This document shows, piece after piece, positions 46,936 through 63,650 of a stretch of DNA of 64,000 bases. Origin of the DNA: Sphingomonas sp. KRR8. GTDB taxonomy: Bacteria; Pseudomonadota; Alphaproteobacteria; Sphingomonadales; Sphingomonadaceae. The DNA lies in NCBI RefSeq assembly GCF_023559245.1, contig NZ_CP097462.1, positions 2,538,001-2,602,000 of the forward strand, given 5' to 3'. Position 1 is the first letter of the stretch. The number at the start of each line of letters is the position of its first letter. Below the pieces are notes generated by a model. The model searched no databases and was not told where the DNA came from. It worked only from the letters and a program-made list of their open reading frames with translations. The position numbers and the translations under genes were made by a program.

Positions 46936-47025
<90 letters not shown>

Positions 47026-47139
47026 CTTACCCGATGTAGGTCGGTCCATCTATGGCCACTCGCCTCTGTTCGTCAGGGGCTCAGGCGCAAATGCTTGGTC
47101 AAACCTCACAATCCGTGATCGTTTGTGGTCATCGACTGA

Positions 47140-47327: not shown

Positions 47328-48629
47328 ATGAAATTGCTTAACGATGCTCAGTGCAAAGGCGCCAAGCCGAAGTCGAAACCACAGAAGCTGTTCGATAGTG
47401 GCGGCCTCTTCCTGTTTGTCTCGCCGACAGGCCACAAGTCCTGGCGCCTGAAGTACAGGTTCGCGGGCAAGGAACGCCAGCGGCTGTACGGCGCCTATCC
47501 CCTGATCGGACTTAAGGAAGCCCGAGCGCTCCGGGATGAGGACAAGCGCCTACTTGCCGATGGCATCGATCCGGGCGTAGAAGCGGCCGCCCGTGCCCTC
47601 AGGGCAAGCGTCGCCGCTTCCGACACTTTCGAGACGCTGGCGCGTGACTGGTTCAAGGATCAGAAGCCGCGTTGGACCAGCGTTCACGCCGATGACGTTC
47701 TGCATAGCCTTGAACGGGACGTTTTTCCCGACCTTGGCCCCTTGTCAGTGGGGATCATCAACTCGCCGATCGTGCTCGCAATCTTAAAGAAGGTGCAGGG
47801 CAGAGGAGCTGTCGAGACGGCTCATCGGCTCCGTCAGCGGATCTCGGCCATCTTCGTCTACGGTATCGCGGCCGGCCGTTCGATGAACGACCCGGCGGCG
47901 ACCCTCAACAAAGCACTGCAAGCGAAGCCAGCCGGAAAGCGTTGGCCAGCTGTAAAGAAGATCGAGGACGCAAGAAAGGTGCTTCAGGCGTCCGACGAAG
48001 CCGAAGTCACGCCAACGATCAAGCTTGCATCTCGTTACCTCAGCATCACAGCGCAGAGACCAGGCATGATCCGGTGGATGCGTTGGGAGGAACTGCACCA
48101 CATCGACTTTGAGGGCGTCGATGAATGTCCCGAGGCCATCTGGTGGGTACCAGCTGCGAAGATGAAGCAGGAGCTGTCGTTGCAGGCCAGTGACGAGTTC
48201 GACCACCCGGTGCCGCTCGTAAGTGAAGCTGTCGACGTTCTCAGGGCGAGCTACGCACTGAACAGCGGGAGCGACTACGTTTTTCCGGGAGCTAGGTCGA
48301 CCAAGGACCCGATGAGCGAGAACGCGCTTAGCTACCTCTACCTCCGAGAAGGTTTCCGCGGCCGCCATGTTCCTCACGGTTGGCGGAGCACCTTCTCAAC
48401 GATTATGAATGAGTGGGCGCTAAGCAACGGTCGAGATAAAGATCGCATGGTCATTGACCTCATGCTTGCGCATCTTCCGGTCGGTATCTCGGCCAGTGAG
48501 CTCAAGTACAATCGTGCTGGCTTCATTGAGCGGAGGCGCGAGCTGTCAAAGATTTGGGCCGGTAAGTTGTTGGTGAATGCACCCCCGGCGGCGAGGCTCT
48601 TAGAGGGTCGGCGAAGGCGGAAAGTGTGA
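47328..48629 (+). CDS. P4-type tyrosine recombinase/integrase
   Basis: A 433-residue integrase. Residues 1-90 form the arm-binding DUF4102-like domain (KLFDSGGLFLFVSPTGHKSWRLKYRF). The core-binding and catalytic domains follow; Arg in TAQRPGMIR (about 244), Lys in AAKMKQE, His and Arg in HGWRSTF (about 350/353), His in LAHLP (about 381) and the nucleophile Tyr in KYNRAG (about 394) complete the catalytic set, so it looks active. It lies next to tRNA-Ser and probably excises and inserts the island. Confidence 0.95.
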   Translation: MKLLNDAQCKGAKPKSKPQKLFDSGGLFLFVSPTGHKSWRLKYRFAGKERQRLYGAYPLIGLKEARALRDEDKRLLADGIDPGVEAAARALRASVAASDTFETLARDWFKDQKPRWTSVHADDVLHSLERDVFPDLGPLSVGIINSPIVLAILKKVQGRGAVETAHRLRQRISAIFVYGIAAGRSMNDPAATLNKALQAKPAGKRWPAVKKIEDARKVLQASDEAEVTPTIKLASRYLSITAQRPGMIRWMRWEELHHIDFEGVDECPEAIWWVPAAKMKQELSLQASDEFDHPVPLVSEAVDVLRASYALNSGSDYVFPGARSTKDPMSENALSYLYLREGFRGRHVPHGWRSTFSTIMNEWALSNGRDKDRMVIDLMLAHLPVGISASELKYNRAGFIERRRELSKIWAGKLLVNAPPAARLLEGRRRRKV

Positions 48630-48713: not shown

Positions 48714-48908
48714 TTACCAGATGCGGGTGTGCGGGCGGTTCATGAACCAGGCCAAGACCTCGTCCATGATCCACATCGGCCGCGAGGGGCTGATGTAGCG
48801 AGGTTTCGGGAAATCCTCCCGCTTGGCGTAACGCCTTGCCGTCGACGGGCTGACATTGGCGATCCCAGCCACGGTCTTGATCGTGATGAACTTTGGAACA
48901 GATGCCAT
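48714..48908 (-). CDS. AlpA family DNA-binding protein (excisionase-like regulator)
   Basis: A 64-residue helix-turn-helix protein: KTVAGIANVSPSTARRYAKREDFPKPRYISPSRP is the AlpA/excisionase wHTH pattern with the wing at SPSRPMWI. The start is fixed at the ATG at 48908 by the GGAGGAAAG ribosome-binding site. In P4-like elements AlpA activates the integrase or acts in excision. It has its own terminator. Confidence 0.9.
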   Translation of the reverse strand: MASVPKFITIKTVAGIANVSPSTARRYAKREDFPKPRYISPSRPMWIMDEVLAWFMNRPHTRIW

Positions 48909-48993
48909 TCTTTCCTCCCCCTTGTGGTGATGAATGGCAAGTAAGAGTTTGGAGGACTTCATTCGACGCAGCGGGATTAACTTCTTGCGCGGC

Positions 48994-49923
48994 TTAAACC
49001 GCACCGCAGCGTGCTGAGAGATGAGCTGCCGTGCCAGTGCGCTTTAGAGCAGCATGGATCTTGTCTGGTGATCGTTCTTGCTTGGGCATAGAAATTCCAC
49101 GTGCACCCGCAATCACTTTGACTTCGTCAAAGATCCGATTCACGAATCGCACAAAGCCCGACGGCGTACCATGGCTCGCACGATTGCCACGATGACAGGT
49201 GACCTTACCGACATGGGAGTCGAACAGAACGGCAAGGTCGCTGATGAAATCATCCTCCTCGCGGTTCGCATAATCACCCAGCCTCGGCGTGACGACTGGG
49301 GCATTCCCCAGTGACGTAGGCAGGGACTCCGACCGGTATTCCTTGAGCCGTTTATCGGCCGCCCTGGAGAGCCAGCGCAAGCCAGCCAAGCCGTGCTCCA
49401 GCTCCACACCTGAAGCTCGGATGACTGGTCCGGGCGATACAAACTCGCTGAAAACGTCAGATTTCACGATGTCGATGAACGATGCATTCAGTGCGAAGCC
49501 AAGAGAGTGCAACAAGAAGTAACGGGTGGCATCCATGCTCTTCACATCTCTCTCCTCCAACTCGAGGTACTGACGGAGAAGCTGTGCAGCCAGTATGTCG
49601 ATGGCATCCGCTGCCTTCCCGGCAGCCACCTTGATGTCATCAAGGAGCTCGGGCAGGGACCTGCTTTCTACCTTGGTGCGACTAGAGAGCAGGTAGGCTT
49701 CGCAAGCTGACGCGACCGGCGCATGCAACTCGCTAGCCGCAGCCTCGATGTGAGCTAGTCGCTCCTGCTGGCGCTTTTCGATCTTTGCGGCTCTGCCTTT
49801 CACCTTTGCCCAGCCGCAATCGACCGCCTCGCGAACGAAGATTAGGTGGAATGATCTCATTGCCGCCTTTTCATTCACTTCAACTTTGTGGATTTTGTAC
49901 TGACTCACGAACTTCGGCCGCAT
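48994..49923 (-). CDS. Unknown 309-residue protein in traM position
   Basis: A soluble protein with a Lys/Arg-rich coiled region (AKIEKRQQERLAHIEAAASELH), several amphipathic helices, and a Cys/His-containing C-terminal part (GKVTCHRGNRASHG). I do not recognise a family. It follows the ATPase gene by 52 bp on the same strand. In IncP plasmids the order traK-traL-traM is fixed, but IncP TraM is about half this size, so homology is not claimed. Confidence 0.7.
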   Translation of the reverse strand: MRPKFVSQYKIHKVEVNEKAAMRSFHLIFVREAVDCGWAKVKGRAAKIEKRQQERLAHIEAAASELHAPVASACEAYLLSSRTKVESRSLPELLDDIKVAAGKAADAIDILAAQLLRQYLELEERDVKSMDATRYFLLHSLGFALNASFIDIVKSDVFSEFVSPGPVIRASGVELEHGLAGLRWLSRAADKRLKEYRSESLPTSLGNAPVVTPRLGDYANREEDDFISDLAVLFDSHVGKVTCHRGNRASHGTPSGFVRFVNRIFDEVKVIAGARGISMPKQERSPDKIHAALKRTGTAAHLSARCGAV

Positions 49924-49975: not shown

Positions 49976-50977
49976 CTACGAAGTGGTAATCGCCGCCTCG
50001 CGATACCTAAGATACTGAGACCTGTACGACTTGGCGGCAGCGAGGATCGCTTGATCGTCGAGATCAGGAGCGAGAAGCGAGCTCATGCTAGCCGCCAGAC
50101 GCGCGTTCTCCTTGATGGCCATGTCAGTAGCCTGCGCGCGCTTCAGGATGGTGTAGGCGCACTGGCGAGGAGCAGCGGACGAGATGCTGCCCAGCTTGTC
50201 GAGCGCATCGATAGTCACGAAGTCCTTGAAGAAGCTCTGCTGAGCGAACTTCAGGAGGCGCTGCGCCATGCAAGCGCTGGCGAGAGTGAAGCCAACGCTT
50301 GGATTCTGGATGACCGTGCTCAACAGCTCGCGACGGCTCAGGCGAACGGCCTGAATTCCACTCGGAACCTGCCCGAGGTGAACCTTCGTCATGCCGAGAT
50401 CTGCCAACTCCGCAGGATATTCCTGCGAGCCGTCCTGATTGTTGCAGACGACCAGAAGCTCTCCCAAGGTCTCGAAGCGCTTCCCGAGCCGCTCAATATA
50501 GTTCGAGGTTGGCGCGTTGGTCGACACAACTGCGCAGATGATGACTCGCGCACCACCATTTGCGAGCATGCGCCAGATTGAGCTGAGGTATGCGGTGATT
50601 GGCAGATCGGAACTATCGATCCCGGCGCCGAGATCGAAGATCATGGTGTCGGCTGCCGGTGCATGCTTCGTAACCCAATGGGGCGCATTGCTCACGGGTG
50701 CGTCCCACGATACCTTGATCACCCGATCCAGACCGACCCGGCGTCCCAACCCCCTGTTGCCATCATCGACGTCGACGAGCAGACACCGCTTGCCAGACAT
50801 CGTGCTGAGAGCTTCGAGGCACTCAGTCGTCTCGGTCTTGCCAGCGCCTCCCTTCTTGGTAGTGACGATGTAGATGGTGTTGGGCCATCTGGCCTCAGCG
50901 ATCGGCTGGCTCTCACAAGCCTTAAACAGGCCGGGGAGGCGGTGGCTCACAATAGAGCCCTTCGTATCATTCACCAT
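49976..50977 (-). CDS. ParA/MinD-type P-loop ATPase, TraL/StbB-like
   Basis: A 333-residue protein with the deviant Walker A box KKGGAGKTETTE, LLVDVDDGNRGLGRR (Walker A' strand) and MIFDLGAGIDSSDL (Walker B). The order of motifs and the position after a small TraK-like gene near the candidate oriT match TraL of IncP or StbB of mobilizable plasmids, which help DNA processing or plasmid positioning. The start ATG at 50977 overlaps the upstream gene by 11 bases. The frame is open further upstream through the neighbour's reading region. Confidence 0.82.
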   Translation of the reverse strand: MVNDTKGSIVSHRLPGLFKACESQPIAEARWPNTIYIVTTKKGGAGKTETTECLEALSTMSGKRCLLVDVDDGNRGLGRRVGLDRVIKVSWDAPVSNAPHWVTKHAPAADTMIFDLGAGIDSSDLPITAYLSSIWRMLANGGARVIICAVVSTNAPTSNYIERLGKRFETLGELLVVCNNQDGSQEYPAELADLGMTKVHLGQVPSGIQAVRLSRRELLSTVIQNPSVGFTLASACMAQRLLKFAQQSFFKDFVTIDALDKLGSISSAAPRQCAYTILKRAQATDMAIKENARLAASMSSLLAPDLDDQAILAAAKSYRSQYLRYREAAITTS

Positions 50978-51407
50978 CGTCCACCCAGCGGCTGCCGAAA
51001 AGGTCAGCCCCCTTCGAGTTTTCTCCGGCGTTCGGAGCCGAGTCATCGTTGTCCACGGCCGCACCCTTGTTCACCTCCAGAGTGGACAAGCTGGGCTTAT
51101 CGATCGTCTTGGTGTTTGAGCAGGTGACCCGCGAAGCCGAGTTGCGGGCACCTTTACCAGGCGGATTGACATTACGCTCCTCGCAGATGCGCTTGAATGC
51201 GCTTTCGACAGCATCGGCCTTGATCGTGGTGCCATCCTCGATTGCCGCCGCGATGTCCTTCCAAGCCATGCCACGCTGCCGAGCCGCCAGGATTTCCTGG
51301 AAACGGTCGTCGACCTTCCCTGTGATTGTGTTAAGGCTACGCTTCTTGCGAATAGCAGCAGCCAACAATCCGTCAGCCCGCCTCCGCCACTTTTCTTCAG
51401 ACGTCAT
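50967..51407 (-). CDS. Small TraK-like accessory protein
   Basis: A 146-residue protein. The N-terminal part has a helix-turn-helix-like pattern (RFQEILAARQRGMAWKDIAAAIEDG, then AVESAFKRICEERN), similar in layout to the TraK/StbA class of small oriT-binding proteins. The C-terminal half is Asp/Asn/Ser-rich and probably disordered. A good GGAGG ribosome-binding site lies upstream of the ATG at 51407. Its divergent position across the gene-free region from the relaxase operon supports the role, which remains an inference. Confidence 0.65.
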   Translation of the reverse strand: MTSEEKWRRRADGLLAAAIRKKRSLNTITGKVDDRFQEILAARQRGMAWKDIAAAIEDGTTIKADAVESAFKRICEERNVNPPGKGARNSASRVTCSNTKTIDKPSLSTLEVNKGAAVDNDDSAPNAGENSKGADLFGSRWVDDGE

Positions 51408-52497
51408 GATCTACCTCCGTCAGAAGATGTATTTCGCAGGCGAAGTCAGGCAAAGAGTACCGTCATGCATACTTTCGTTTGACGGAACTTGATCGGAATT
51501 GATCGCTGTTGAGCATGTTTGACGATGTTTGCATATTTTGTTATTGTGTAAGCTTGCGCGTTCTGCTTGTCGACGAGCATGTTCGACACAGCTTCTATGG
51601 CAATCGTCCTCAAGACGGGGATGCTGACGCGACCAGACATGACGTGCTGCGGGGGAGGGGATCATCACCTAATCCGGCTTTCCTTGCTGACGTGGGCCGC
51701 ACTCGCAGGCTTCTTGATGCCTGCGCTGGCGCATTTGGCGGCGCTTCGCTGATGGAATGGAGCTTCGTACCCACCGGCCTCCGTGACACACCTCATCGGC
51801 TACTCTCTTGCTTGCAGAGCCCGCTACCCACCGGCGCGAAGGTGCTTCCTCGTCACTTTGCTCGAGAGGTTCTGAGCGGCAACACTTCGGTAGGTTTGCC
51901 GGGTCTTTGCTGCCTGTTAGGCTGGAAGCAGCATCTTGATTGAAGCTGTGCGCAATCTCGCGCTGGCCCATGTCACAGTGCCACAATCAAGCTCAAGGCT
52001 GGCCTTACTCTTGCCGCTTACCTGCCCGGCAAACATTGGTGTCAATGACGCGCGCCGTTCGGTGCGGCCGGCAGCAGGTCAGGCGAGGAGTGGTGGCCAC
52101 CCTGCCGGCGTCGAAGCGTGCGACTTCTGGCTAACTTGGGTCGAGCATCGCAGGGTGCGCGGCACCAAGTTGTCCGATATTCTAGCGGCAGCCTCGCTCA
52201 AGTCGTCATGCCCCGTTGCTCAAGTCACGCAAGGGCGGTTGTGGGCTGAGGAGGCACAAACCTTGTGCCATCGGCTGCCGGTCGTTCGTAGGCTGGACGT
52301 TTCTGATCTTGCTGGCCGGCCTCACGGATGTGAGAAGCTAGTCTCGTGGGTTTCGTATCGGGAACTTTGTCACCCCGATCGCTGCTTCAGCTACACTTAC
52401 CTGCTCGCCGCTGCAGAGCCCGCTGGACGGCAGCTCTGCCGGAGAGCGCGTCGAGGATGGCTCGGCCACCTGCCGGATGACCTGACCGCACCTTTGC
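51408..52497. other. Gene-free region upstream of the tandem repeats
   Basis: No credible gene in 1.09 kb. Near the left end, AT-rich DNA (around 51480-51550) has repeated TTGATCG and GTTTGAC/GTTTGC motifs and probably holds promoters or protein-binding sites. Further right are short direct repeats: TACCCACCGGC at 51768 and 51825, TGCAGAGCCCGCT at 51813 and 52412, and a degenerate copy of the tandem-repeat core at 52011-52035. GGTTTGCCGGG at 51894 is an inverted copy of part of it. Confidence 0.65.
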
Positions 52498-52688
52498 CGC
52501 TTCGCTCGCCGGCAAACCGCAGGCCGGCTGCCGCTTCGCTCGCCGGCAAACCGCAGGCCGGCTGCCGCTTCGCTCGCCGGCAAACCGCAGGCCGGCTGCC
52601 GCTTCGCTCGCCGGCAAACCGCAGGCCGGCTGCCGCTTCGCTCGCCGGCAAACCGCAGGCCGGCTGCCGCTTCGCTCGCCGGCAAACC
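52498..52688. repeat. Perfect 34-bp tandem repeat, 5.6 copies
   Basis: Five full units (52498-52531, 52532-52565, 52566-52599, 52600-52633, 52634-52667) and 21 bases of a sixth are identical in every base. Each unit begins CGCTTCGCTCGCCGGCAAAC and contains two GCCGGC palindromes 9 bases apart. There are no spacers, so it is not a CRISPR array. It ends 14 bp from the candidate nic region, so it may bind relaxosome proteins. The complete identity indicates recent expansion or strong homogenisation. Confidence 0.95.
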
Positions 52689-52702
52689 ACTTATGAAAAA
52701 AT

Positions 52703-52737
52703 GAGCAGGATGGGCCGCGTATACGGCCGTGATGCTC
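52703..52737 (-). other. Candidate origin of transfer (IncP-like nic region)
   Basis: On the minus strand CATCCTG/C (52712 to 52705) matches the MOB_P/IncP nic consensus YATCCTGY. Directly 5' of it is the inverted repeat GGCCG-TATACG-CGGCC (52713-52728), flanked by a further outer pair GAGCA / TGCTC (52703-52707 and 52733-52737). As in RP4, the inverted repeat lies on the side of the TraJ-like gene and the other side faces the TraK-like gene. The nick would fall between 52706 and 52705. Not tested. Confidence 0.6.
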
Positions 52738-52769
52738 GGCGGAGAACCTTCTCGCATTGGAGAGAGTAG

Positions 52770-53069
52770 TTGAAGAAGAATTCTGAGGACGACAGCGCCA
52801 GCATGGTGGAGGTTACCTTCCGCCTGCCGCGGGTTGAAGTAGGCGAACTGGACCGGGCTGCGGAGGCCAGTCTGATGAACAGGTCCGAGTACATTCGCTT
52901 CCTCCTGCGGGGCAGGCCAGTCGTCTCAAACGTTGGTCTCGCGGCGCTCCGCCGCTTGATCCAGATTCATGGTCTTGTTCAGGCAAGAGAGGAATGCGGC
53001 GAGCTGAACGCGACGCTCCGCGAGTTGATCCCGGTCCTTGCCAAGGCAGTTCGGCACAGGCTCGTCTGA
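52770..53069 (+). CDS. Ribbon-helix-helix relaxosome accessory protein (TraJ/MobC-like)
   Basis: A 99-residue protein starting at a TTG behind a GGAGAGAG ribosome-binding site. VTFRLPRVEVGELDRAAEASLMNRSEYIRFLLRG is the beta-strand plus two-helix pattern of ribbon-helix-helix proteins that bind next to nic and recruit the relaxase. The stop overlaps the relaxase start (TGATG). The other frame of this region is not coding. Confidence 0.82.
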   Translation: MKKNSEDDSASMVEVTFRLPRVEVGELDRAAEASLMNRSEYIRFLLRGRPVVSNVGLAALRRLIQIHGLVQAREECGELNATLRELIPVLAKAVRHRLV

Positions 53070-55240
53070 TGATCGGCAAGATCATCAGGATGAACCGGCA
53101 TCAGCGTCCCTCGACCGAGCAGCGGGTCGCCCGGCTGCAGAGTTCAGTCCTGGCGCTGACCCGGTACGTCGTGGACGCCGATCCGCACGCACTTGCTGCA
53201 GTGGCGGCTGAGAATGTCCTGTCGATTACTGACTACGCCCTTGCGGTCCGGCATGCTGGCATCGAGCCGGGCGAGAAAGTCGAGGCGTCGGGCAAGCTAA
53301 ACCTGCTTGGCCGTGATCTGGCCGAGTGGCAGGCCGAGATGCTGGCCACGGCGGTAGGCGCGACGACCGTCAAGAACCACGTCGTTCATATCATTCTGAG
53401 CCTTCACGAAGGCGAAACGTGGTCGCCGCAGCAGCGCGAAGAAGCAATCACGATCATGTTGGGCATTCTCCGTCTCGAACGATGCCAGACAATCTGGGCC
53501 GAGCACTCCAACACCAGGAACCCGCATCTTCACCTGGCGGTCCTGCGTGTCGATCCTACGACGGCTTCAGCCGCAGGAACCGACTGGCTGATCGACGATC
53601 TGCATCAGGGACTTGCTCTCATCGAGGAGAGGCAGGATCGGATCCGCGAACCTAACGCCCTTTACCGCGCTGAAGAGGGTGCCATCTTCGACGTAGAGAC
53701 TGGTGCCCTCGTCCGCCACGCTGATGGGACGTTTGTCTCCAAGTGGTGGGAGGCTCTCGGCAAGAAGCGGACGCGTTTGCCTTCCCTTATTCAGGACGCG
53801 CGCGGAGCCCTCGCCCAGGCGGCAGCAGAGGCGTCCAGCTGGGCGGACCTGCACGAGCGCTTGAAGGCCCTAGACGCAACGTATGACAAGGCCGGAAGCG
53901 GTGCTCGGATCGCCGTCGAGACGCAATCAGCCAAGGCTTCCGAAGTCCACTCCAGCCTTTCGCGTCCGGAGCTGGAGAAGCGGCTCGGCCCGTTCGAACG
54001 CGACCTGACCCGGGTGAATACTAGCTATGAGGCTTACAAGGTCAGCGTGCAGGACCAGCTCGACCACCTTCGTCAGAGGCGCGACCAAGAAGTCGATGCA
54101 GTTGATGCCTGGTTAAAGGCGCGTGTCGCCGAGATGCCTGCGAACAAGCGGAAGCTGCTGGCGCCGCTCGTGCAGCAGGAAGGGCTCACCGCGACCAAGG
54201 CCATCCAGAAGGCCTTCGCCGAGGCCATCAGCCGGTGCACGCGTCAGCGCATGAACGAGGATCAGTGGCGGCAGTCTGGTGAGCCTGCCTTGCTAACGCC
54301 AGTCAGTTCCCCGTCCTTGATTCTTCCTCTCTCGGGAGGTGAGGAGTTCAGCACGCAGCTGGCGGATCGATCCGGGAGGCAGGCTCACCGCTACCACACG
54401 GAGTATGTCGATCGAGATGGTCGCACGCTCTTCACCGACCACCGTGCCTTCATCATCGTCCATGCCGCCGACGAGGTTGCCGCAGTCGATGAGGCTCTTG
54501 CGCTTGCGGCGGAAAGGTGGGGAACGTTGAGGCTGGTGGGGCCAGCTGCCTTCATCACCTTGGCGGCACAGCGCGCTGAAGCTCTCGGCATCGCGGTCAT
54601 CTATGATGCTGAGGCTCCTGTGCCCCAGTCTCCGACGACGCAGGTCGACGCTGGGACGGGACTCACCGGCGAAGCAGAGGTCGTGACCGTGCCCGCTCCG
54701 CGCCAACGATCGCCCGAAGAAATGAAGGCGCTGCGGGTCCGACGTGCTCTTCGAACCCTGGATGACCTCCCAGACCTGCGCGTCTGCCGACGAGCAGCGG
54801 CAGGTGACAATCAGCTGACCGGAAGGACAGGTCCCTTCCAGATTGTTGCCGATCGCCACGATCCCAGGCTGGAAGAGGTCACCATTCTCGACCTCGATCC
54901 ACTCGTGCAGGAGTATCTGCAGCAGCGCCACCAAAAGAGAATCGACGACTGGGCCGTGGAGCTGGAACGTCGTTGTGACGGGCCGCTGCCGTATCGAGAC
55001 GCCGAAATTCTTGCCGTCTTGTCGCCGGCCGGCAACGATCGCGAGCTAGCCAAAGTCGCCTCGCGGGATACCGAGTTCCTCGAGATGACAAGGCGAGTAC
55101 GAGATCGGCTGAAGAACCGACCAGTGAGGAAGAAGCTTGAAGCCCCCGCCGTGACGAGCTCGCCGGGAGACGATCTCTCCTACGAGGAGGTCAGAAGGGT
55201 GCAGGAGCAGCTGAAGGAGATTGCTGCTCAAGGGCTGTAG
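53069..55240 (+). CDS. MOB_P-type relaxase with LPD7-like region
   Basis: A 723-residue relaxase starting MIGKIIRMNR at 53069. Motif III is HSNTRNPHLHLAVLR at about residues 146-160, the HxNTxNxHxH metal-binding site of MOB_P relaxases, preceded by NHVVHIILSLHEGE. The motif I Tyr is probably in LTRYVVDADP. The middle is helical, and about residues 440-515 (RYHTEYVDRDGRTLF, WGTLRLVGPAAFITLAAQRAEALGI) match the LPD7 domain found in large conjugation proteins. It should cut the oriT at 52706 and pilot the strand. Start chosen by the one-base overlap with the upstream gene. Confidence 0.9.
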   Translation: MIGKIIRMNRHQRPSTEQRVARLQSSVLALTRYVVDADPHALAAVAAENVLSITDYALAVRHAGIEPGEKVEASGKLNLLGRDLAEWQAEMLATAVGATTVKNHVVHIILSLHEGETWSPQQREEAITIMLGILRLERCQTIWAEHSNTRNPHLHLAVLRVDPTTASAAGTDWLIDDLHQGLALIEERQDRIREPNALYRAEEGAIFDVETGALVRHADGTFVSKWWEALGKKRTRLPSLIQDARGALAQAAAEASSWADLHERLKALDATYDKAGSGARIAVETQSAKASEVHSSLSRPELEKRLGPFERDLTRVNTSYEAYKVSVQDQLDHLRQRRDQEVDAVDAWLKARVAEMPANKRKLLAPLVQQEGLTATKAIQKAFAEAISRCTRQRMNEDQWRQSGEPALLTPVSSPSLILPLSGGEEFSTQLADRSGRQAHRYHTEYVDRDGRTLFTDHRAFIIVHAADEVAAVDEALALAAERWGTLRLVGPAAFITLAAQRAEALGIAVIYDAEAPVPQSPTTQVDAGTGLTGEAEVVTVPAPRQRSPEEMKALRVRRALRTLDDLPDLRVCRRAAAGDNQLTGRTGPFQIVADRHDPRLEEVTILDLDPLVQEYLQQRHQKRIDDWAVELERRCDGPLPYRDAEILAVLSPAGNDRELAKVASRDTEFLEMTRRVRDRLKNRPVRKKLEAPAVTSSPGDDLSYEEVRRVQEQLKEIAAQGL

Positions 55241-55266: not shown

Positions 55267-58200
55267 TCAGGCGGCGTAGCGGCCGTTGCCGAGGCGGCGG
55301 GCCATGCCGACGCTTGCGAGAGCGTCGAGAACCGGACGGACGGTGGCGGCACGCTTGCCCTTGAACGCTCGGGCGACGTCCTGCGGCGCGAGTGGCGTTG
55401 GCGAGGAGGCGACGATCGACTGGACGGCGCGGACCTGCTCAGGGAGGGTGCCGGGCCAGGGAATGACGCTGTCGGGCAGCGCCGCGGAGGCCTCACCGAG
55501 GTCGAGGGTGCCGGCGACTGGCGCCTGGTAGTCGGGCGCCTGATACTCGGGCCTGAGCCAACGAACCAGCCCGCGAGCTTCCTCCGCCGCCCGCTCCTTG
55601 TTGAGGGCAACGAGACGGGTGAGGATCTCCTCGTCCGGCAGGTCGGCCGGCCAACCATAGGCTTCGGCGACCAGGACATCGATGGCGTCATGATGTTGGC
55701 GGATGAGTGTCACCAGCCCACGATCGTGAATGTCGCGCTCTTTGGCATCGATTGCCTTCCCTTCCCGCAGCGCTTCCAGCACATTGTAGAGCTTGGTGAG
55801 GGTGAGGTCTTCATTCTCGGCGAGGACCCGCTTGCGGAGGGCGTCGAGGGCTTCGGCTTCAGTGCGGATGCGGTCCTTGAGGGTTTCCGGCACATCGGCT
55901 GGGAAGGGGAAGTGGTCGAAGCAGCGCGACTTGTTGTAGCGGGGATCGTCTCCAACGCCCATGCGAGCGCCCGTGGCAAGAGCCCATACGCAATGCGTCC
56001 GACTGCTCAATGCACCTAAGACGAGTGCGTCTTCACTTGCGACCACGATGAGAGCGTCATCGGGCAGGATATTGCATTCAAGAAACTGGAAGAAGCGATG
56101 CTTAGCCGTAACCGGGGTAGCGATGTAGCGCTTCAGCTTAGACAAAGCTCGTCTGAGTTCGGGACGCCTCTCCCCGTAAAGCCACCAGTTTTCTCGGTAA
56201 CTTGAACGATTGTTCTGATCCCGATGTGGTTTAACCGTGGCAAGAACATGCTGGTAGACAGCCGGACACGCTTCACGGGCATCGGCCTCGGAAAGCCCGA
56301 ATAGGTCGATGACCTTCACTCCGCGCGGCCGTGACGTTAGGTCTCTCCCGTGCCGGTATTCGAAAATGAATCCGTTTCCGAGCGCAGGACCCGTGCGGAT
56401 GTGTGCGATCGCCGGCTCCACTGGTTGCAGCCGCGCCGCTTCCTCGGCGCGCAAGATGAACCCGTCCCCGTGAAGTTTCACCCCTGGCGAGCATAGGCTC
56501 TCGTTCGCGCGGAGTGTTACGGCAGAAGTCACGTTTGCCCCTACTCGAAGATCACTACCTATCTCGCCGAAACGCTTAGAGAATAGGATCTCATTCGGAG
56601 CGCGAGTTTCATCAACGACAGACAACAGGGCGCCACTCCGCTTGCCTAGGTGTCCAACGGACATGGCTATGCGAACAGCGGCCCCGTCCTTCTCGTCGAT
56701 CCAAGGATGGTTGGGTATGGCGAAGACCAAGCTAAGTCGGTCTCTTGCGTCTAATTGCTTCGCGATAACTCGTCTGCTGAAAATCTGCGTGATGGAGTTC
56801 GTGGTTACGAACCCAAATCGCCGGGCACCATGGAGTCGAACGGCCGTTGCTGCCTTGTCCCACCAGTGCATCACGAAGTCGGCGCTTTCGGGAACGCTCG
56901 TCGTGCGGAAGAGTGCATCGAAGTAGCCCTCTCCTAATCGATCACGCAGGTACTTCGCGCCAATAAACGGTGGGTTGCCAACGATGAAATCAGCTTGAGG
57001 CCACACCGCTGGGCGCGAATTCAAGAAGCGATAAACCTCCACCCGCGCGGTCTCGTCGGGCACATCCCGACCCGTGACAGGATTCACCTTCATGGTCTCG
57101 CCATCCCAGCGGGTGACTGGTTGGCCGTAATCGTCGCGCTCAAGCACGCGCTCGTCCCACGCGATCAAGGCATCGCGGTTCTCGATGGTCCGGATGTCGC
57201 GGAGGATGGGCTCGGGCGGGGGCCGGTCGTGGCCGTTCACGCGGAAGTGCCACTGGAGGTAGCCGATCCACAGCACCAGCTGGGCGATGGCGGCCGCGCG
57301 CGGGTTGATCTCGATGCCCAGAAAGTTCTCGGGCGTGATGGTGTGGCCGGTGATTTCGGCGACATATTGGTCGTCGCCAAGCTCGACCAAAAGGTCGAGG
57401 ACCTCGCCCTCCAGCTCCTTCATGCGGGCCATGGCGACATAGAGGAAGTTGCCGGTGCCGCAGGCGGGGTCCAGCACTTTGGTCTGGGCGAGCTTGGAGT
57501 GGAAGGCCTGGACGAAGGTGCGGGCCTCGTCGACCTTGCCTTCCTCGATGAGGGGGGCGGTGGCACCCCGAACTCCATCCCAGTCGGCCCGGAGTGGCTC
57601 CATGATGGTCGGCCCGATCAGCCGCTCCACATAGGCCCGGGGCGTGTAGTGGGCGCCGAGCTTGGCCCGCTCCTTGGGATTGAGCGCCCGTTCGAGCAGG
57701 GTGCCGAAGATCGCTGGCTCAACGTCGGTCCAGGTGTGCTCGGCCGCCTTGATGAGGACGTCCAGCTCCTCGGTGTCGAGCGGAATGGCCGTGCGGTCTT
57801 TGAAAAGGTAGCCGTTGAACTTCTTCAGTGGGACGCCGAGCGCGGGCGAGAAGTCGCCAGCGTCCATGGCGGTCCAGAGCGCCGTCAACTGCTGCTGAAG
57901 ATGCTCGGGGTGGGCGCGCTGGTTTTTGAGTAGGTTGGTGAAACTGCCTTCGGGAATTAGGCCGCTATCCTCTGCAAACATGGTGAAGAGGACGCGCATG
58001 AGGAAGCCGCTAGTCGCCTCGGCGTTGAAGCCGCGCTTCTCGATGCGACGAGCGACCGTGGCGAGCAGGTCGGCTATGTCGCGGGTGACACGGGCGGCTC
58101 GGGCGGCGGGGTCAAGGCTCTTGGGGTCGGTCCAGATTGCCCGGAGGCGGTCGCGGACCTCCTCGTCGGCAAGGTCCTCGAGCATGATCCGGTAGCGGGC

Positions 58201-58746
58201 CCGGTCCGGGAACTGGGCGTAGGCGCGGCCGGTGCCAGTGAAGTCCGCATAGACCTCGATGCAGTATCCGACGTCTACAACCAGCAGGAACGGCGGCCAG
58301 CCATGCTCGACCGGGAGGGCCTTGGCGTAACGTTCGGCCTGACCCTTGGCCTGGAGCATGGCCTTGGCCCAGCCTGGCGTACCCCGGCGGGCGGTGCCGC
58401 GCTTCATGCGGGTCGAAGCGGTCTGACCGAAAAGGTCGAGGTCGTCCTCGCCGCGTTCGGCGGCCGCTCGGTCGGCCTCGCTTCCCTGCTTGGCCTCAAG
58501 GATGAAGCAATCTCGCTTGTAGCAGTCGATCCGGCCGAAGCTGGTCGAGCCGTCGCCATTATCTTGAAAGACCCGGCGCTCGAAGACGTAGTCGTTGTGC
58601 TGATCGTCGGTACGGCTGCCGAGCGGCGGCTCGACACCGAGGAGACCGCATAGCCCGCTGATGAAGCTCTGTGTGTTGGCGAGCTCAGACCCGCCCGTGT
58701 CCCGCCACGCCGCAATGAAACGCTCTACGCCACGCCCCTCGTCCAT
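55267..58746 (-). CDS. Type IIL (MmeI-like) restriction-modification enzyme, single chain
   Basis: A 1,159-residue protein. The N-terminal nuclease motif is RIDCYKRDCFILEAKQ with Asp74, Glu84 and Lys86, the same D-x9-E-x-K spacing as MmeI. A helical linker follows, then the N6-adenine methyltransferase core with DPACGTGNFL at about 424-433 and NPPF near 590, then a target-recognition region. The last about 120 residues add a winged-helix-like tail (LAPQDVARAFKGKRAATVRPVLDALASVG) after two repeated QAPDYQAPV-type linkers, so it is longer than the about 920 of MmeI. One protein methylates one strand and cuts unmodified DNA at a distance. Confidence 0.9.
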   Translation of the reverse strand: MDEGRGVERFIAAWRDTGGSELANTQSFISGLCGLLGVEPPLGSRTDDQHNDYVFERRVFQDNGDGSTSFGRIDCYKRDCFILEAKQGSEADRAAAERGEDDLDLFGQTASTRMKRGTARRGTPGWAKAMLQAKGQAERYAKALPVEHGWPPFLLVVDVGYCIEVYADFTGTGRAYAQFPDRARYRIMLEDLADEEVRDRLRAIWTDPKSLDPAARAARVTRDIADLLATVARRIEKRGFNAEATSGFLMRVLFTMFAEDSGLIPEGSFTNLLKNQRAHPEHLQQQLTALWTAMDAGDFSPALGVPLKKFNGYLFKDRTAIPLDTEELDVLIKAAEHTWTDVEPAIFGTLLERALNPKERAKLGAHYTPRAYVERLIGPTIMEPLRADWDGVRGATAPLIEEGKVDEARTFVQAFHSKLAQTKVLDPACGTGNFLYVAMARMKELEGEVLDLLVELGDDQYVAEITGHTITPENFLGIEINPRAAAIAQLVLWIGYLQWHFRVNGHDRPPPEPILRDIRTIENRDALIAWDERVLERDDYGQPVTRWDGETMKVNPVTGRDVPDETARVEVYRFLNSRPAVWPQADFIVGNPPFIGAKYLRDRLGEGYFDALFRTTSVPESADFVMHWWDKAATAVRLHGARRFGFVTTNSITQIFSRRVIAKQLDARDRLSLVFAIPNHPWIDEKDGAAVRIAMSVGHLGKRSGALLSVVDETRAPNEILFSKRFGEIGSDLRVGANVTSAVTLRANESLCSPGVKLHGDGFILRAEEAARLQPVEPAIAHIRTGPALGNGFIFEYRHGRDLTSRPRGVKVIDLFGLSEADAREACPAVYQHVLATVKPHRDQNNRSSYRENWWLYGERRPELRRALSKLKRYIATPVTAKHRFFQFLECNILPDDALIVVASEDALVLGALSSRTHCVWALATGARMGVGDDPRYNKSRCFDHFPFPADVPETLKDRIRTEAEALDALRKRVLAENEDLTLTKLYNVLEALREGKAIDAKERDIHDRGLVTLIRQHHDAIDVLVAEAYGWPADLPDEEILTRLVALNKERAAEEARGLVRWLRPEYQAPDYQAPVAGTLDLGEASAALPDSVIPWPGTLPEQVRAVQSIVASSPTPLAPQDVARAFKGKRAATVRPVLDALASVGMARRLGNGRYAA

Positions 58747-58826
58747 GCCGCCATAGAGCATGGACGCCCGCCGGAGCGCAACGAGAGAGGGAGGGGCGCC
58801 TTGGTGATCACACCAAGGAGAATGAA

Positions 58827-59177
58827 ATGTCTGAAGAGCAGCCCGAAGACGAGTATCGCTTCGGCTTCACGAAGGAACAGTTCCTTGCCGAACTCAGGGC
58901 TCACGAAGGTCTGATCAGGGATGGTGGCTACGTTCCCACCCGCCGCGAAGTGGCCACTTGGCCGCCAGCCCGGCTCAACTGGCATCTGCTCGGCAGGTGG
59001 TGGGAGAGCCCGTCCAGCCTGATCCCGAACGATGCCCAAGTCGCCGAGTGCGTCGCCGTCCTGCAGGTGCGACCCGACGGCGCGAGTGAGAAGATCCAGC
59101 AGATTATCGCGCGAGCGCCGCCCTTCTTTGGAGGGCGTGAAGGTGGAAGGCAGCCGCGCGGAGGACGGCTCCAATGA
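58827..59177 (+). CDS. Unknown protein, first gene of a three-gene cargo operon
   Basis: A 116-residue acidic protein with FTKEQFLAELRAHEG, PARLNWHLLGRWWESP (Trp-rich) and a Gly/Arg-rich, probably disordered C-terminus. It shares 4 bases with the next gene (ATGA). It is divergent from the restriction-modification gene with 80 bp between start codons. No family recognised. Confidence 0.7.
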   Translation: MSEEQPEDEYRFGFTKEQFLAELRAHEGLIRDGGYVPTRREVATWPPARLNWHLLGRWWESPSSLIPNDAQVAECVAVLQVRPDGASEKIQQIIARAPPFFGGREGGRQPRGGRLQ

Positions 59178-59800
59178 GAGTGAAGGGGAGAGTGATTGAA
59201 CCCGAAAAGATGAAAACTCGAAGGTTCGATCGAAGTCACCAACGCTCAAGAGAGACTGAATACATGAAGACTGCACCCGTCCCCCACCCCGGCATTGAGC
59301 TGGACCCCATCCCCGAGCCCCCAGTACAAATCCGCCGCCTGATGCTGGCCATGGGGACCATCCTCGATGGCTTCATCGACCAGGAGCCCCAGCATTGGCA
59401 TCCGGCTCTTTTGCACTCCATGGTGGTGCCTGGGGCCGATATCGTCCTTGCCGGCACCCGCTGCTGCCGTCCGCTCATCACCCGCGAAGTTGGCAACATC
59501 GCCCAAGCGGTGGATCGCGACGCCATCATCGTCCGGGCCGCCGACGAGGCTAAGCACGCGACCTTTGACGTCCTGCTGCGTCATGTCGAGCGGCCGTTCC
59601 TGGGCTATCGCCTTTGGATGCGGCAGCCGCTCGGCAGCGCCTGGCTGGTGCCAACCGGCGGTGAGCGCACCTTCATCCGTCTCGATGGACTTGGCCTCGA
59701 GCTTTGGTCCGAAGCACCGTTCGAGGATGAGATCGACGCCTATCGCGGCTTGAAGGCGGGTGCAGAGTATCTCTCGATCGCCGTGCAGGGGTGGTTCTGA
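59174..59800 (+). CDS. Unknown protein, second gene of the cargo operon
   Basis: A protein of up to 208 residues; the ATG at 59174 overlaps the previous stop, while an in-frame ATG at 59264 (MKTAPVPHPG) gives a cleaner start. Visible features are LMLAMGTILDGFIDQEPQHWHPALLHSMVVPG, several conserved-looking His and Trp, and a C-terminus ending in AVQGWF. I do not recognise the family. It overlaps the next gene by one base (TGATG). Confidence 0.7.
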   Translation: MRVKGRVIEPEKMKTRRFDRSHQRSRETEYMKTAPVPHPGIELDPIPEPPVQIRRLMLAMGTILDGFIDQEPQHWHPALLHSMVVPGADIVLAGTRCCRPLITREVGNIAQAVDRDAIIVRAADEAKHATFDVLLRHVERPFLGYRLWMRQPLGSAWLVPTGGERTFIRLDGLGLELWSEAPFEDEIDAYRGLKAGAEYLSIAVQGWF

Positions 59801-60411
59801 TGCCCGGCAAGAGGAAGTCGTCGGCGCTGGAGAGCGCCTCAGTCGCGGCTTTGATCACGCGGCCGCTCAAGGCCTTCTACCACAACCAGCCGGATGATCC
59901 GGTCTCCACGGCCAGGTTCTACTGGTCGAAGGGTGAAGGTTCTCGCGAGAGCATCGTTCCCCACTTCGAGGCCAAGTGTCGGCCCGGAAATAAAGGGACC
60001 GAAGAAGACAAAGCGGCAGCGGTGGAGGTGCTGTTGCGCGGCGACGTGCCGCAGGACTACGCCGACCCACTGTTCTTGGCTGAGAGCTACATGTCGAAGC
60101 TCCCGGCGGACGAGAATGCGGCCTTCGCGCAGATCACGCTGCAGTTCCCGGAGGCAACGAACCTGCATGCCCCTTGGCATCAGGCCCGGTCCTGGATGCG
60201 GGAGCACTTCGTCGAACGTGTCGGCGTCCCGGTCCTGGCCGTCCTGCATGCTCCATTCTTGATGGGGAGCGATAACTCGGTGCACGTCCACGGACTGGTG
60301 CTGATGAAGCGGACGACATGCTTCGGGTGGTTCGGCGTTCACCGGGACCTGGCGAGTGACGCTGGGCTGGCTGCTGCGGAAGCGAGTTGGCGCGACTGGG
60401 TCAGCAAGTAA
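59800..60411 (+). CDS. Unknown protein with HxH motif, third gene of the cargo operon
   Basis: A 203-residue protein beginning MPGKRKSS. Near the C-terminus HAPFLMGSDNSVHVHGLVLMKR resembles the HxH (HUH-like) metal-binding strand of MobA/MobL-type relaxases or Rep proteins, followed by a helix ending in WRDWVSK. No catalytic Tyr region is evident, so it may be a stand-alone HUH-fold relative; this is a weak motif match only. It ends the operon. Confidence 0.7.
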   Translation: MPGKRKSSALESASVAALITRPLKAFYHNQPDDPVSTARFYWSKGEGSRESIVPHFEAKCRPGNKGTEEDKAAAVEVLLRGDVPQDYADPLFLAESYMSKLPADENAAFAQITLQFPEATNLHAPWHQARSWMREHFVERVGVPVLAVLHAPFLMGSDNSVHVHGLVLMKRTTCFGWFGVHRDLASDAGLAAAEASWRDWVSK

Positions 60412-62227: not shown

Positions 62228-62243
62228 GTAAGTGAGTTTCCGT

Positions 62244-63650
62244 ATGCTGCTGACCATTTCGACGACGCATCAGCCAGCGACCGACTTGGGCTTCCTGTTG
62301 ATGAAGCATCCGGACAACGTGCATTCGGTGGAGCTGTCGTTCGGTCGCGCGACCCTGTTCTACCCCGAGGCGAAGGAGGAACGCTGCACGGCTGCGATCA
62401 CCTTGGAGGTCGATACGGTCGAGCTGGTGCGCGGCAAGGCAAAGATCGAGGATCAGTATGTCAGCGACCGGCCCTATGTAGCTTCCTCCCTGCTGTCGGT
62501 CGCGCTTGGGCGGCTTCTCAATACGGCAATGGGTGGCCGCTCCAAGCACCGACAGGAGCTGGCCGAGGTCGCAATCTCCCTGGAGATCGAACTCACACCC
62601 TTGCCGGCTCGAGGAGCCGCCGATCTGCTCGCCCGCTTGTTCGAGCCGCTTGGCTATTCCGTCCAATTGTCGGCCATCCCGCTCGATCCGGCACACCCGG
62701 AATGGGGTGACAGCCCCTACGTCCAGCTGAAGCTGGCCGGCAAGCAACGGTTGGCGGCGCTGCTCACCCATATGTTCGTGCTCATTCCCGTGCTCGACAA
62801 TTCAAAGCATTACTATGTGGGCGAAGACGAGGTGCAGAAGCTGCTCCGCAAGGGCGAAGGGTGGCTTGAGACGCACCCGGAGCGGGAGTTGATCGTCCGC
62901 CGCTACCTCCGGGGCCTGCAGTCGCTGGTGCGGCAGGCGCGGACCCAGCTGGACGAGCGCGTTGAGGCCGAGGAGGCGGAGGAGCATTCGTCGCGCGATG
63001 CGCAAGAGGAAGCGATCGAGAAGCCGATCCGGCTGAACGACCAGCGCATGACCTATGTGTCGGAGCTGATCCGCGAAAGCGGCGTCCATAGCATCCTCGA
63101 CCTTGGCTGCGGCGAGGGCCGGCTGCTGCGCGAGCTGATCAAGATCCCCGGCCTCAGGAAGATCACTGGCGTCGAAGTCGCGCCGAGAGTGCTGGCGGCC
63201 GCCGGCGATCGCCTGAAGCTGGACCATATGCCCGACATGAAGCGGCAGCGAATCCAGCTTCTGCAGGGATCTCTGGTCTACCGCGACGACCGGCTCACTG
63301 GCTTCGACGCAGCGGCAGTGATTGAGGTCATCGAGCACATGGACCCGGAGCGGCTTCCGGCGTTCGAGGCGGCGCTGTTCGGCCATGCACGGCCGGGAAT
63401 GGCCGTTATCACCACGCCCAACCGCGAGTATAACGCCCTGTTCGAAGGCATGCAGCCGGAGGCCATGCGCCATCCCGATCACCGCTTCGAGTGGACCCGC
63501 GCCGAGTTCCGCCACTGGGCCGAGAGCGTCGCTCAGGCACATGGCTATGGCGTGCGTTTCGAAGGTATCGGTAGCGAGGACGCCGCTCACGGGCACCCGA
63601 CGCAGGTCGCCATCTTCACGCGAGCCGAGGATGTGAGGGCTGCGGCATGA
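62244..63650 (+). CDS. hen1: RNA 3'-terminal 2'-O-methyltransferase Hen1
   Basis: A 468-residue bacterial Hen1 starting MLLTISTTHQPATDLGFLLMKHP, the standard N-terminus. Residues 1 to about 250 are the N-terminal Hen1 domain that supports the RNA ligase activity of Pnkp. The C-terminal methyltransferase has ILDLGCGEGRLLREL (AdoMet loop) and VIEVIEHMDPERL with the metal-binding Glu/His set, then TTPNREYN. It methylates the 2'-OH at RNA breaks during repair so the site cannot be cut again. Its stop overlaps the pnkp start (ATGA). Confidence 0.95.
   Translation: MLLTISTTHQPATDLGFLLMKHPDNVHSVELSFGRATLFYPEAKEERCTAAITLEVDTVELVRGKAKIEDQYVSDRPYVASSLLSVALGRLLNTAMGGRSKHRQELAEVAISLEIELTPLPARGAADLLARLFEPLGYSVQLSAIPLDPAHPEWGDSPYVQLKLAGKQRLAALLTHMFVLIPVLDNSKHYYVGEDEVQKLLRKGEGWLETHPERELIVRRYLRGLQSLVRQARTQLDERVEAEEAEEHSSRDAQEEAIEKPIRLNDQRMTYVSELIRESGVHSILDLGCGEGRLLRELIKIPGLRKITGVEVAPRVLAAAGDRLKLDHMPDMKRQRIQLLQGSLVYRDDRLTGFDAAAVIEVIEHMDPERLPAFEAALFGHARPGMAVITTPNREYNALFEGMQPEAMRHPDHRFEWTRAEFRHWAESVAQAHGYGVRFEGIGSEDAAHGHPTQVAIFTRAEDVRAAA

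Follow-up and report, generated by a model that had tools for sequence, protein, structure and literature searches.

Divergent genes around a predicted origin of transfer

We analysed a window of 64,000 nucleotides (positions 2,538,001–2,602,000) from the one-contig genome of Sphingomonas sp. KRR8, which has 2,874,800 bases and is labelled G000; all coordinates below follow the numbering of the window unless a locus is named. The window contains a divergent intergenic gap of 1,362 bp at 51408–52769, to which no strand is assigned. On the left of the gap, a TraK-like gene on the minus strand (50967–51407, 146 amino acids (aa)), a DNA-binding candidate in the StbA position, is followed by the gene for a ParA/MinD-type ATPase in the StbB/TraL position (49976–50977, minus strand, start ATG at 50977). 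On the right, the gene for a putatively NikA/TraJ-like ribbon-helix-helix (RHH) protein (52770–53069, plus strand, 99 aa, TTG start) precedes that for a MOB_P relaxase (53069–55240, plus strand), the start of which overlaps the RHH stop by 1 base. In our interpretation, to which we give a probability of roughly 0.85, the region controls the mobilization of an integrative and mobilizable element (IME); nicking, protein binding, excision and the use of a helper are predicted from gene content and comparison. The original prediction had proposed a mobilizable island with the layout of the Tra1 region of incompatibility group P (IncP) plasmids, situated beside an integrase at tRNA-Ser. The divergent pair, the relaxase behind the RHH gene, the integrase at the tRNA and an order and polarity shared with the IncP plasmid R751 were all recovered. 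A relaxase region with an origin of transfer (oriT) in IncP layout, near an integrase at tRNA-Ser and in a genome with no match to three central secretion families, is well supported.

The relaxase has matches above cut-off to PF03432 (E = 6.8e-15), TraI_middle and LPD7, and is 23% identical to TraI of R751. Its tyrosine Y33 and the HxH pair H153/H155 align with R751 TraI and are invariant in six sequences; the PF03432 domain, the N-terminal tyrosine and the HxH motif that mark a MOB_P relaxase are thus all present.

A probable oriT lies at 52705–52756, 14–65 bp before the RHH start codon. Its three parts are GCAGGATGGG, which reads CCCATCCTGC on the minus strand, an inverted repeat that varies, and a box, TGCTCGGCGGAGAACCTTCTCGCA. 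The predicted nic core (52705–52714, minus strand) reads CCCATCCTG^C, with the nick placed between 52706 and 52705; we take the IncP/MOB_P nic consensus to be ATCCTG^Y and have set the cut position by analogy with RP4. The inverted repeat GGCCG-CGTATA-CGGCC (52713–52728, no strand) adjoins nic in the position of the TraJ site, and the second conserved box follows at 52733–52756 (plus strand). In its nic core, its adjoining inverted repeat and its orientation towards the RHH and TraK genes, the element agrees with an IncP-type oriT. In R751, which served as the IncP reference, the DNA before traJ shows the same arrangement and polarity: GGGCAGGATG, then a long inverted repeat, then a similar box, GCTCAACGGGTCATCCTGCTCTGCGA.

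A stricter version of the oriT pattern matched once in the window and never in 100 shuffles. Scanning the genomes of 84,980 species (genome_contigs) gave five matches, three in Qipengyuania and two in Sphingomonas, all of them Sphingomonadales, and all five adjoin a related relaxase; there were no matches to the pattern in viral_contigs, and no relatives of the relaxase protein were found in genome_contigs. Related relaxases occur in 12 of 396 genomes of the order and in 5 of 71 genomes of the genus, the window's own being counted in each case. Nine loci of the 11 others were read at length (L047–L055, with G198 and G121 left out). The oriT element lies upstream of the related relaxase in eight of these nine, and the last bases of its core and its spacing vary among the eight loci. 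Inverted-repeat stems of at least 7 bp are present in six of nine distinct elements, all six of them in relatives (stems of 7–8 bp); their sequences differ, and p is below 0.05 for each of the six. Comparison of the gap with those of G303, G205 and G103 found the short stretch before the RHH gene to be common to all, and nothing else.

The gap had been described as free of genes. It holds mechanical open reading frames (ORFs) of 144 aa (51509–51943) and 277 aa (51936–52769), but these lack the support of a family or of conservation: neither has a Pfam match at E ≤ 1, and the part of the gap left of the repeat array described below has no match at E ≤ 0.05 in the gaps of G400, G303, S. parva, G205 and G103. 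Both ORFs are therefore probably not genes, and the description stands in that sense.

The array, which the original prediction did not mention, is a plus-strand tandem array of a 34-bp unit (52495–52688). It comprises 5.7 copies (five perfect copies and one partial copy) and ends 17 bp from the predicted nick. The unit has no further match in the genome with up to three mismatches allowed. Because the G400 and G303 gaps hold about one unit, the array looks like a local expansion; the S. parva gap has no such repeated 9-mer. We considered the array as a family-wide conserved binding site and rejected this, as it is not kept in the gaps of relatives. For RP4, TraK is described as covering a segment of about 200 bp in the oriT region, from nic towards traK (PMC7314908, PMC3098194), which means that the array sits where a TraK-type protein would bind, and by this analogy its position would suit candidate TraK-type binding. 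An Rfam scan returned a single row at chance level (E = 0.53), folding of the array strand gave a z of −1.6 with 13 of 200 shuffles equally stable, and a promoter and terminator scan gave nothing beyond chance level.

Proteins of the probable leading operon

Read from the gap along the minus strand, the leading genes encode the TraK-like protein, the ATPase, a 309-aa protein in the third (TraM/StbC) position (48994–49923) and an AlpA/excisionase-like helix-turn-helix (HTH) protein (48714–49004). The ATPase gene begins inside the end of the TraK-like gene, and there is a further overlap between frames three and four, so that the four genes probably form one operon. The 309-aa protein, recognized as an ORF with homologues in relatives, matches no PHROG and does not reach the cut-off of any Pfam family. 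The fourth protein matches phrog_66, ‘excisionase and transcriptional regulator’ (E = 2.5e-10), with Pfam HTH and AlpA matches under cut-off, and homologues of its gene are present in L047, L091 and L104.

The original prediction named the first gene as traK. Its position, a weak direct match and stronger links through intermediates suggest a relationship of this kind; identity with IncP TraK proper was not established. None of the searches against Pfam, NCBIfam, PHROGs and PDB sequences was informative for the protein, and PF17273 gave no match. We therefore rely on profile comparisons, of which there were 36 test and 36 control comparisons (control minima were E = 0.069 for 11 unrelated R751 proteins and E = 0.068 for reversed sequences). 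The family (alignment A1, 21 sequences) had its best direct TraK-family match in a PF17273 member from a Yersinia plasmid (E = 5e-4, 31% probability), one of two PF17273 members among five added plasmid proteins, the other being from E. coli. The bridge to other proteins is formed by the TraK-position proteins of L048 and L049, which A1 matches at E = 1e-11 and which in turn match a Thioflavicoccus plasmid protein (E = 3e-7) and an IncI2 protein (E = 1e-4), these two being TraK by position only. The R751, E. coli NZ_CP145631 and Acinetobacter proteins gave nothing under E = 0.02. A link to the TraK group through intermediates thus has moderate support from these profiles, and the protein appears to be only weakly linked to IncP TraK. 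R388 StbA is reported to have reached RP4 TraK only after seven rounds of PSI-BLAST (PMC3098194), so weak similarity would be usual within the StbA/TraK group.

The structural model of the TraK-like protein, with a predicted local distance difference test (pLDDT) score of 66, has a helical N terminus, a low-confidence linker and the C-terminal residues RWVDDGE; Foldseek found no match to it in the PDB at E ≤ 0.001. A role of RWVDDGE as a docking motif was considered and dropped. In four elements the bases that encode it, GACGATGGTGAATGA, also hold the ATPase start (window 50967–50990), and this overlap may explain why the residues are conserved.

For the second gene, the prediction of a TraL-like ATPase holds as to a ParA-type ATPase in second position and is not established as to TraL proper, because MinD scores alike. 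Against the IncP TraL family (NF010461) the protein reached 13.6 bits, with a cut-off of 360. Its profile matched an alignment of seven TraL proteins at E = 1.2e-9 over 179 columns; individually, R751 TraL scored 56.4 (114 columns) and E. coli MinD 55.1 (57 columns), and IncC ParA matched over 42 columns only. A TraL-specific match was dropped once MinD had been added as a control, and since MinD scores like TraL, the TraL identity of the ATPase rests on its position as the second gene of the leading operon beside the predicted oriT. A search for the ATPase in plasmids gave no match. The model (pLDDT 90) folds like MinD, ParA, MipZ and other P-loop proteins. The structural check suggested in the original prediction therefore succeeded for the ATPase, which has a fold of the ParA/MinD-type class to which StbB is assigned (PMC3098194), and not for the TraK-like model, which has no PDB fold match. 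The P-loop K42-G-G-x-G-K-T is invariant in 40 ATPase sequences and fits the KGGxGK[T/S] motif of the TraL/MobD group.

With an ATPase whose fold lies in the ParA/MinD superfamily and which scores MinD like TraL, the operon could instead be mainly of the partition type, keeping or placing the excised circle through a StbA/ParB-like protein on the 34-bp repeats, with any role in transfer being secondary. R388 StbA is described as binding direct repeats upstream of its own operon and as being needed for stability (PMC3098194), and the array places a cluster of repeats between the operon and nic. Conservation of the array is lacking, however: G400 and G303 each have about one unit and S. parva has no such repeated 9-mer, so that it cannot be the general binding site of the family. 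The operon and nic adjoin in all six elements that show both (the window, G303, G400, S. parva, G205 and G103). Moreover, StbA and StbB of R388 act on stability and transfer alike, so that the two readings overlap. We consider a mainly partition-type operon rather unlikely.

Integration at tRNA-Ser(CGA) and past movement

The putative integration site is a tRNA-Ser(CGA) gene (46936–47025, plus strand, identified with ARAGORN). A 25-bp attL core (47002–47026, strand not assigned) recurs identically outside the window at G000:C1:2689633, 104,631 bp downstream; there is no tRNA at this second copy, which directly precedes a metallo-beta-lactamase-fold-like gene at 2689672. Next to the tRNA is the gene for a tyrosine integrase with an arm-binding domain (47328–48629, plus strand; PF13356, E = 6.4e-21; PF22022, E = 8.6e-30; PF00589, E = 2.5e-5, under cut-off). 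The element thus has its own integrase with attachment (att) cores at a chromosomal site, and its own relaxase with an oriT assigned by comparison, as is expected of an IME.

The distance from tRNA-Ser(CGA) to the metallo-beta-lactamase-fold-like gene is 105 kb in G000, but the figures for G363 and G397 are 65 and 29 kb, with largely different content in the three, and hardly any of the crude ORFs between the G000 att copies match the G363 or G397 intervals. Judged by this comparison, the interval is an integration hotspot. G397 and G363 were tried as empty attachment sites and rejected, because the flanking genes are 29 and 65 kb apart.

The same tRNA precedes the element in G400 (L092), G303 (L093) and S. 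parva (L104), and homologues of the integrase adjoin it in all three genomes. In S. parva the order is tRNA-Ser(CGA), integrase, AlpA-like, 309-aa, ATPase and TraK-like genes, followed across the gap by nic, the RHH gene and the relaxase gene, which runs off the stretch. G303 and G400 have the same order with about 10 kb of other DNA between the integrase and the operon, and in G205 and G103 the ATPase, TraK-like and relaxase units adjoin, with no tRNA-Ser in the stretches read. The integrase genes of G400 and G303 are 99.4% identical, compared with 77.7% for the gene before the tRNA; the oriT–relaxase segments of G000 and G400 are 93.0% identical, compared with 70.3% for this one flanking gene. 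Modules of the island that are far more alike than the flanking chromosomal gene imply that the elements have moved in the past.

The part of G000 that can be aligned with G400 or G303 (about 90–93% identity) begins only some 50 bp to the left of nic and extends to the right from there. We do not claim relaxase-driven exchange of modules at nic, because the match between G400 and G303 is patchy inside the relaxase gene and ordinary homologous recombination suffices. In G308, L056 (7414–10390) has a tRNA-Ser(GGA) and, with it, relatives of the integrase, AlpA-like, 309-aa and ATPase genes. Neither a nic element nor a related relaxase was found in that stretch, which is possibly a decayed or relaxase-less relative.

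A scan of the chromosome for type IV secretion genes, which the original prediction had proposed, gave no matches to the VirB4, VirD4 and TrbL families in the complete genome (these three families were searched, and other subunits were not). As far as these families represent it, the element has no mating-pair formation of its own, as in an IME, and transfer of the G000 copy would therefore need a helper. Genes of the VirB4 family are present in 8 of 15 genomes checked, with G303, G205 and S. parva among those that have them and G000, G400 and G103 among those that do not.

Several results weigh against this interpretation of the region. Assignments to families fall short of their thresholds: the relaxase scores 148 bits against NCBIfam TraI/MobA(P) (E = 5e-43, cut-off 250 bits), the RHH protein 25.4 bits against the NikA-like PF21983 (E = 1.6e-5, cut-off 27 bits), and the ATPase matches ParA/MinD-type families alone, under cut-off, in Pfam and NCBIfam. 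Of the seven TraL proteins, six score lower than MinD, even if the TraL matches mostly extend over more columns, and the profile of the TraK-like family meets 37 IncP TraK proteins at an hhalign E of only 0.16. Only three of the nine relaxase loci (L047–L049) have both the TraK-like and the ATPase genes, and L050 has a related relaxase but no such oriT element. The window's own inverted-repeat stem of 5 bp is not significant alone (p = 0.28), nor does the 4-bp stem of G103 stand out (p = 0.85). Three of the six plasmid traJ–traK gaps compared (R751, E. coli NZ_CP145631 and Thioflavicoccus) have the GCAGGAT core, and those of the Yersinia, IncI2 and Acinetobacter plasmids have none. At the far end of the island, attR may delimit one 105-kb element or several accreted ones, and no second att copy was found within six mismatches in the G363 and G397 intervals scanned. 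The search for secretion genes, finally, covered three families of the type IV secretion system.

The lack of matches to these families, a tRNA-Ser interval whose length (29 to 105 kb in the three genomes compared) varies as it would in an accretion hotspot, and a restriction gene that is truncated in relatives would also suit a decayed remnant, that is, a former IncP-type mobilization module that became trapped in the chromosomal hotspot and is now immobile. We hold this to be improbable: open frames are kept throughout, from the integrase and excisionase-like genes to those for the ATPase, TraK-like protein, RHH protein and relaxase, the tRNA and both att cores are intact, and between species the modules resemble each other far more closely than does the chromosomal gene next to them, implying past movement. 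That the nic-like element serves the RHH–relaxase operon as a promoter or regulator site and is no transfer origin, as its place 14–65 bp before the RHH start and the reported repression of traJp by RP4 TraJ from its inverted repeat (PMC7314908) might suggest, is very improbable, given that core, hairpin and box recur jointly before diverse relaxases while the hairpin sequence changes, that the order of the elements matches the R751 oriT and that both roles coincide in RP4 anyway.

Proposed mechanism and relation to known systems

As the control region of an IME, the locus suggests the following course of events. With the help of the AlpA/excisionase-like protein, the integrase would release the island from its site at tRNA-Ser(CGA). 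On the nic/inverted-repeat/box element at 52705–52756, the RHH protein would assemble with the relaxase, and the relaxase would cut the minus strand at CCCATCCTG^C and remain on the 5′ end. The TraK-like protein would bind on the array side of nic and, together with the ParA-type ATPase, may shape or position the relaxosome, as has been proposed for StbA/StbB and TraK/TraL. The coupling protein and type IV channel of a helper would then export the strand, such that the operon for the TraK-like protein, ATPase, 309-aa protein and excisionase would enter the recipient first and the relaxase gene last; this agrees with the description of stb genes as lying on the side that enters the recipient first (PMC3098194).

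More tentatively, and with doubt, we suggest that in this sphingomonad IME family a single divergent control region at nic might drive both the relaxosome programme and a Stb-type positioning operon that ends in an excisionase gene. If this were true, a single promoter under the control of TraK would link excision, placement of the relaxosome and first entry into the recipient, and the 34-bp array of the G000 copy would be an amplified cluster of TraK sites that tunes the frequency of transfer.

The locus resembles the IncP Tra1 core traJ-oriT-traK-traL-traM of RP4 and R751 in its divergent layout, with the GCAGGAT nic core on the same side, in the hairpin and then box before the RHH gene, in its MOB_P relaxase and in the ATPase as the second gene of the leading operon. 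Unlike Tra1, it lies on an integrated island and not on a plasmid, in a genome without a VirB4, VirD4 or TrbL family match, and its relaxase and TraK-like protein are distant from their IncP counterparts (23% identity with R751 TraI, and E = 0.16 with IncP TraK). Its ATPase also differs from IncP TraL in being longer, with a C-terminal helical part, and in not being specifically TraL. Homologues of stbABC of R388 are described in the leading regions of MOBF11, MOBP11, MOBP6 and MOBP13/14 plasmids (PMC3098194). The island ATPase has the KGGxGK[T/S] motif of the TraL/MobD group in common with the stbABC group, whereas the island operon differs from R388 stbABC, compared by description, in being integrated, in its excisionase-like fourth gene and in having no family-wide repeat array.

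Two integrated elements described earlier are similar in part. A putative IncP island of Burkholderia glumae is likewise described as integrated and helper-dependent, with a MobP relaxase and TraJ- and TraK-related proteins; compared by its description, it carries TrbJ, a probable TrbK and TrbL, whereas G000 has no TrbL match (PMC5704250). pPDL2 of Sphingobium fuliginis is, like the island, an IME from a sphingomonad, and is described as inserting site-specifically into a serine tRNA gene at its 3′ end; again compared by description, it is a 37-kb plasmid whose proposed mobilization protein, RepB, has weak MOBF similarity, whereas the island has a MOB_P relaxase and an IncP-like oriT (PMC3516476). 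A 2017 review states that no IME then described from Proteobacteria had its own relaxase without parts of a type IV secretion system, which is the canonical class (PMC5704250); later work describes relaxase-bearing IMEs in Mesorhizobium (PMC8627217).

A search of the literature on IMEs, on oriT, TraK and TraL, on stb systems and on sphingomonad islands, which covered few subscription journals, gave no account of this family among the matches listed. The island would be an element of a known kind, the IME, in a new form: its leading operon, of the Stb/TraKL type, includes an excisionase-like gene as well. The family would add alphaproteobacterial relaxase-bearing IMEs with a mapped candidate oriT, which makes helper range and nicking directly testable. 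It also places a Stb-type operon, described from plasmids, on integrated elements with an excisionase-like gene, and suggests how conjugation could move even a large genomic island that lacks genes for secretion.

Further genes lie to the right of the relaxase. A full-length gene for an MmeI-like type IIG restriction-methylation enzyme (55267–58761, minus strand) adjoins it, and remnants alone of this gene were found in G303 and G400 (L047 7245–7859; L091 about 7910–8875). In three elements the relaxase is followed by a pair of conserved genes (here 59174–59800 and 59791–60411, plus strand) to which neither Pfam nor PHROGs assigned a family. The pair is 83–87% identical to its counterparts in G400 and G303. 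At 62232–63650 there is a gene for a Hen1-type RNA repair methyltransferase (PF12623, E = 6.4e-104), followed by an ORF of 847 aa with a P-loop-like start that runs beyond the window to 66190. Together these look like a Hen1–Pnkp RNA repair pair, the second partner being judged by its P-loop-like start.

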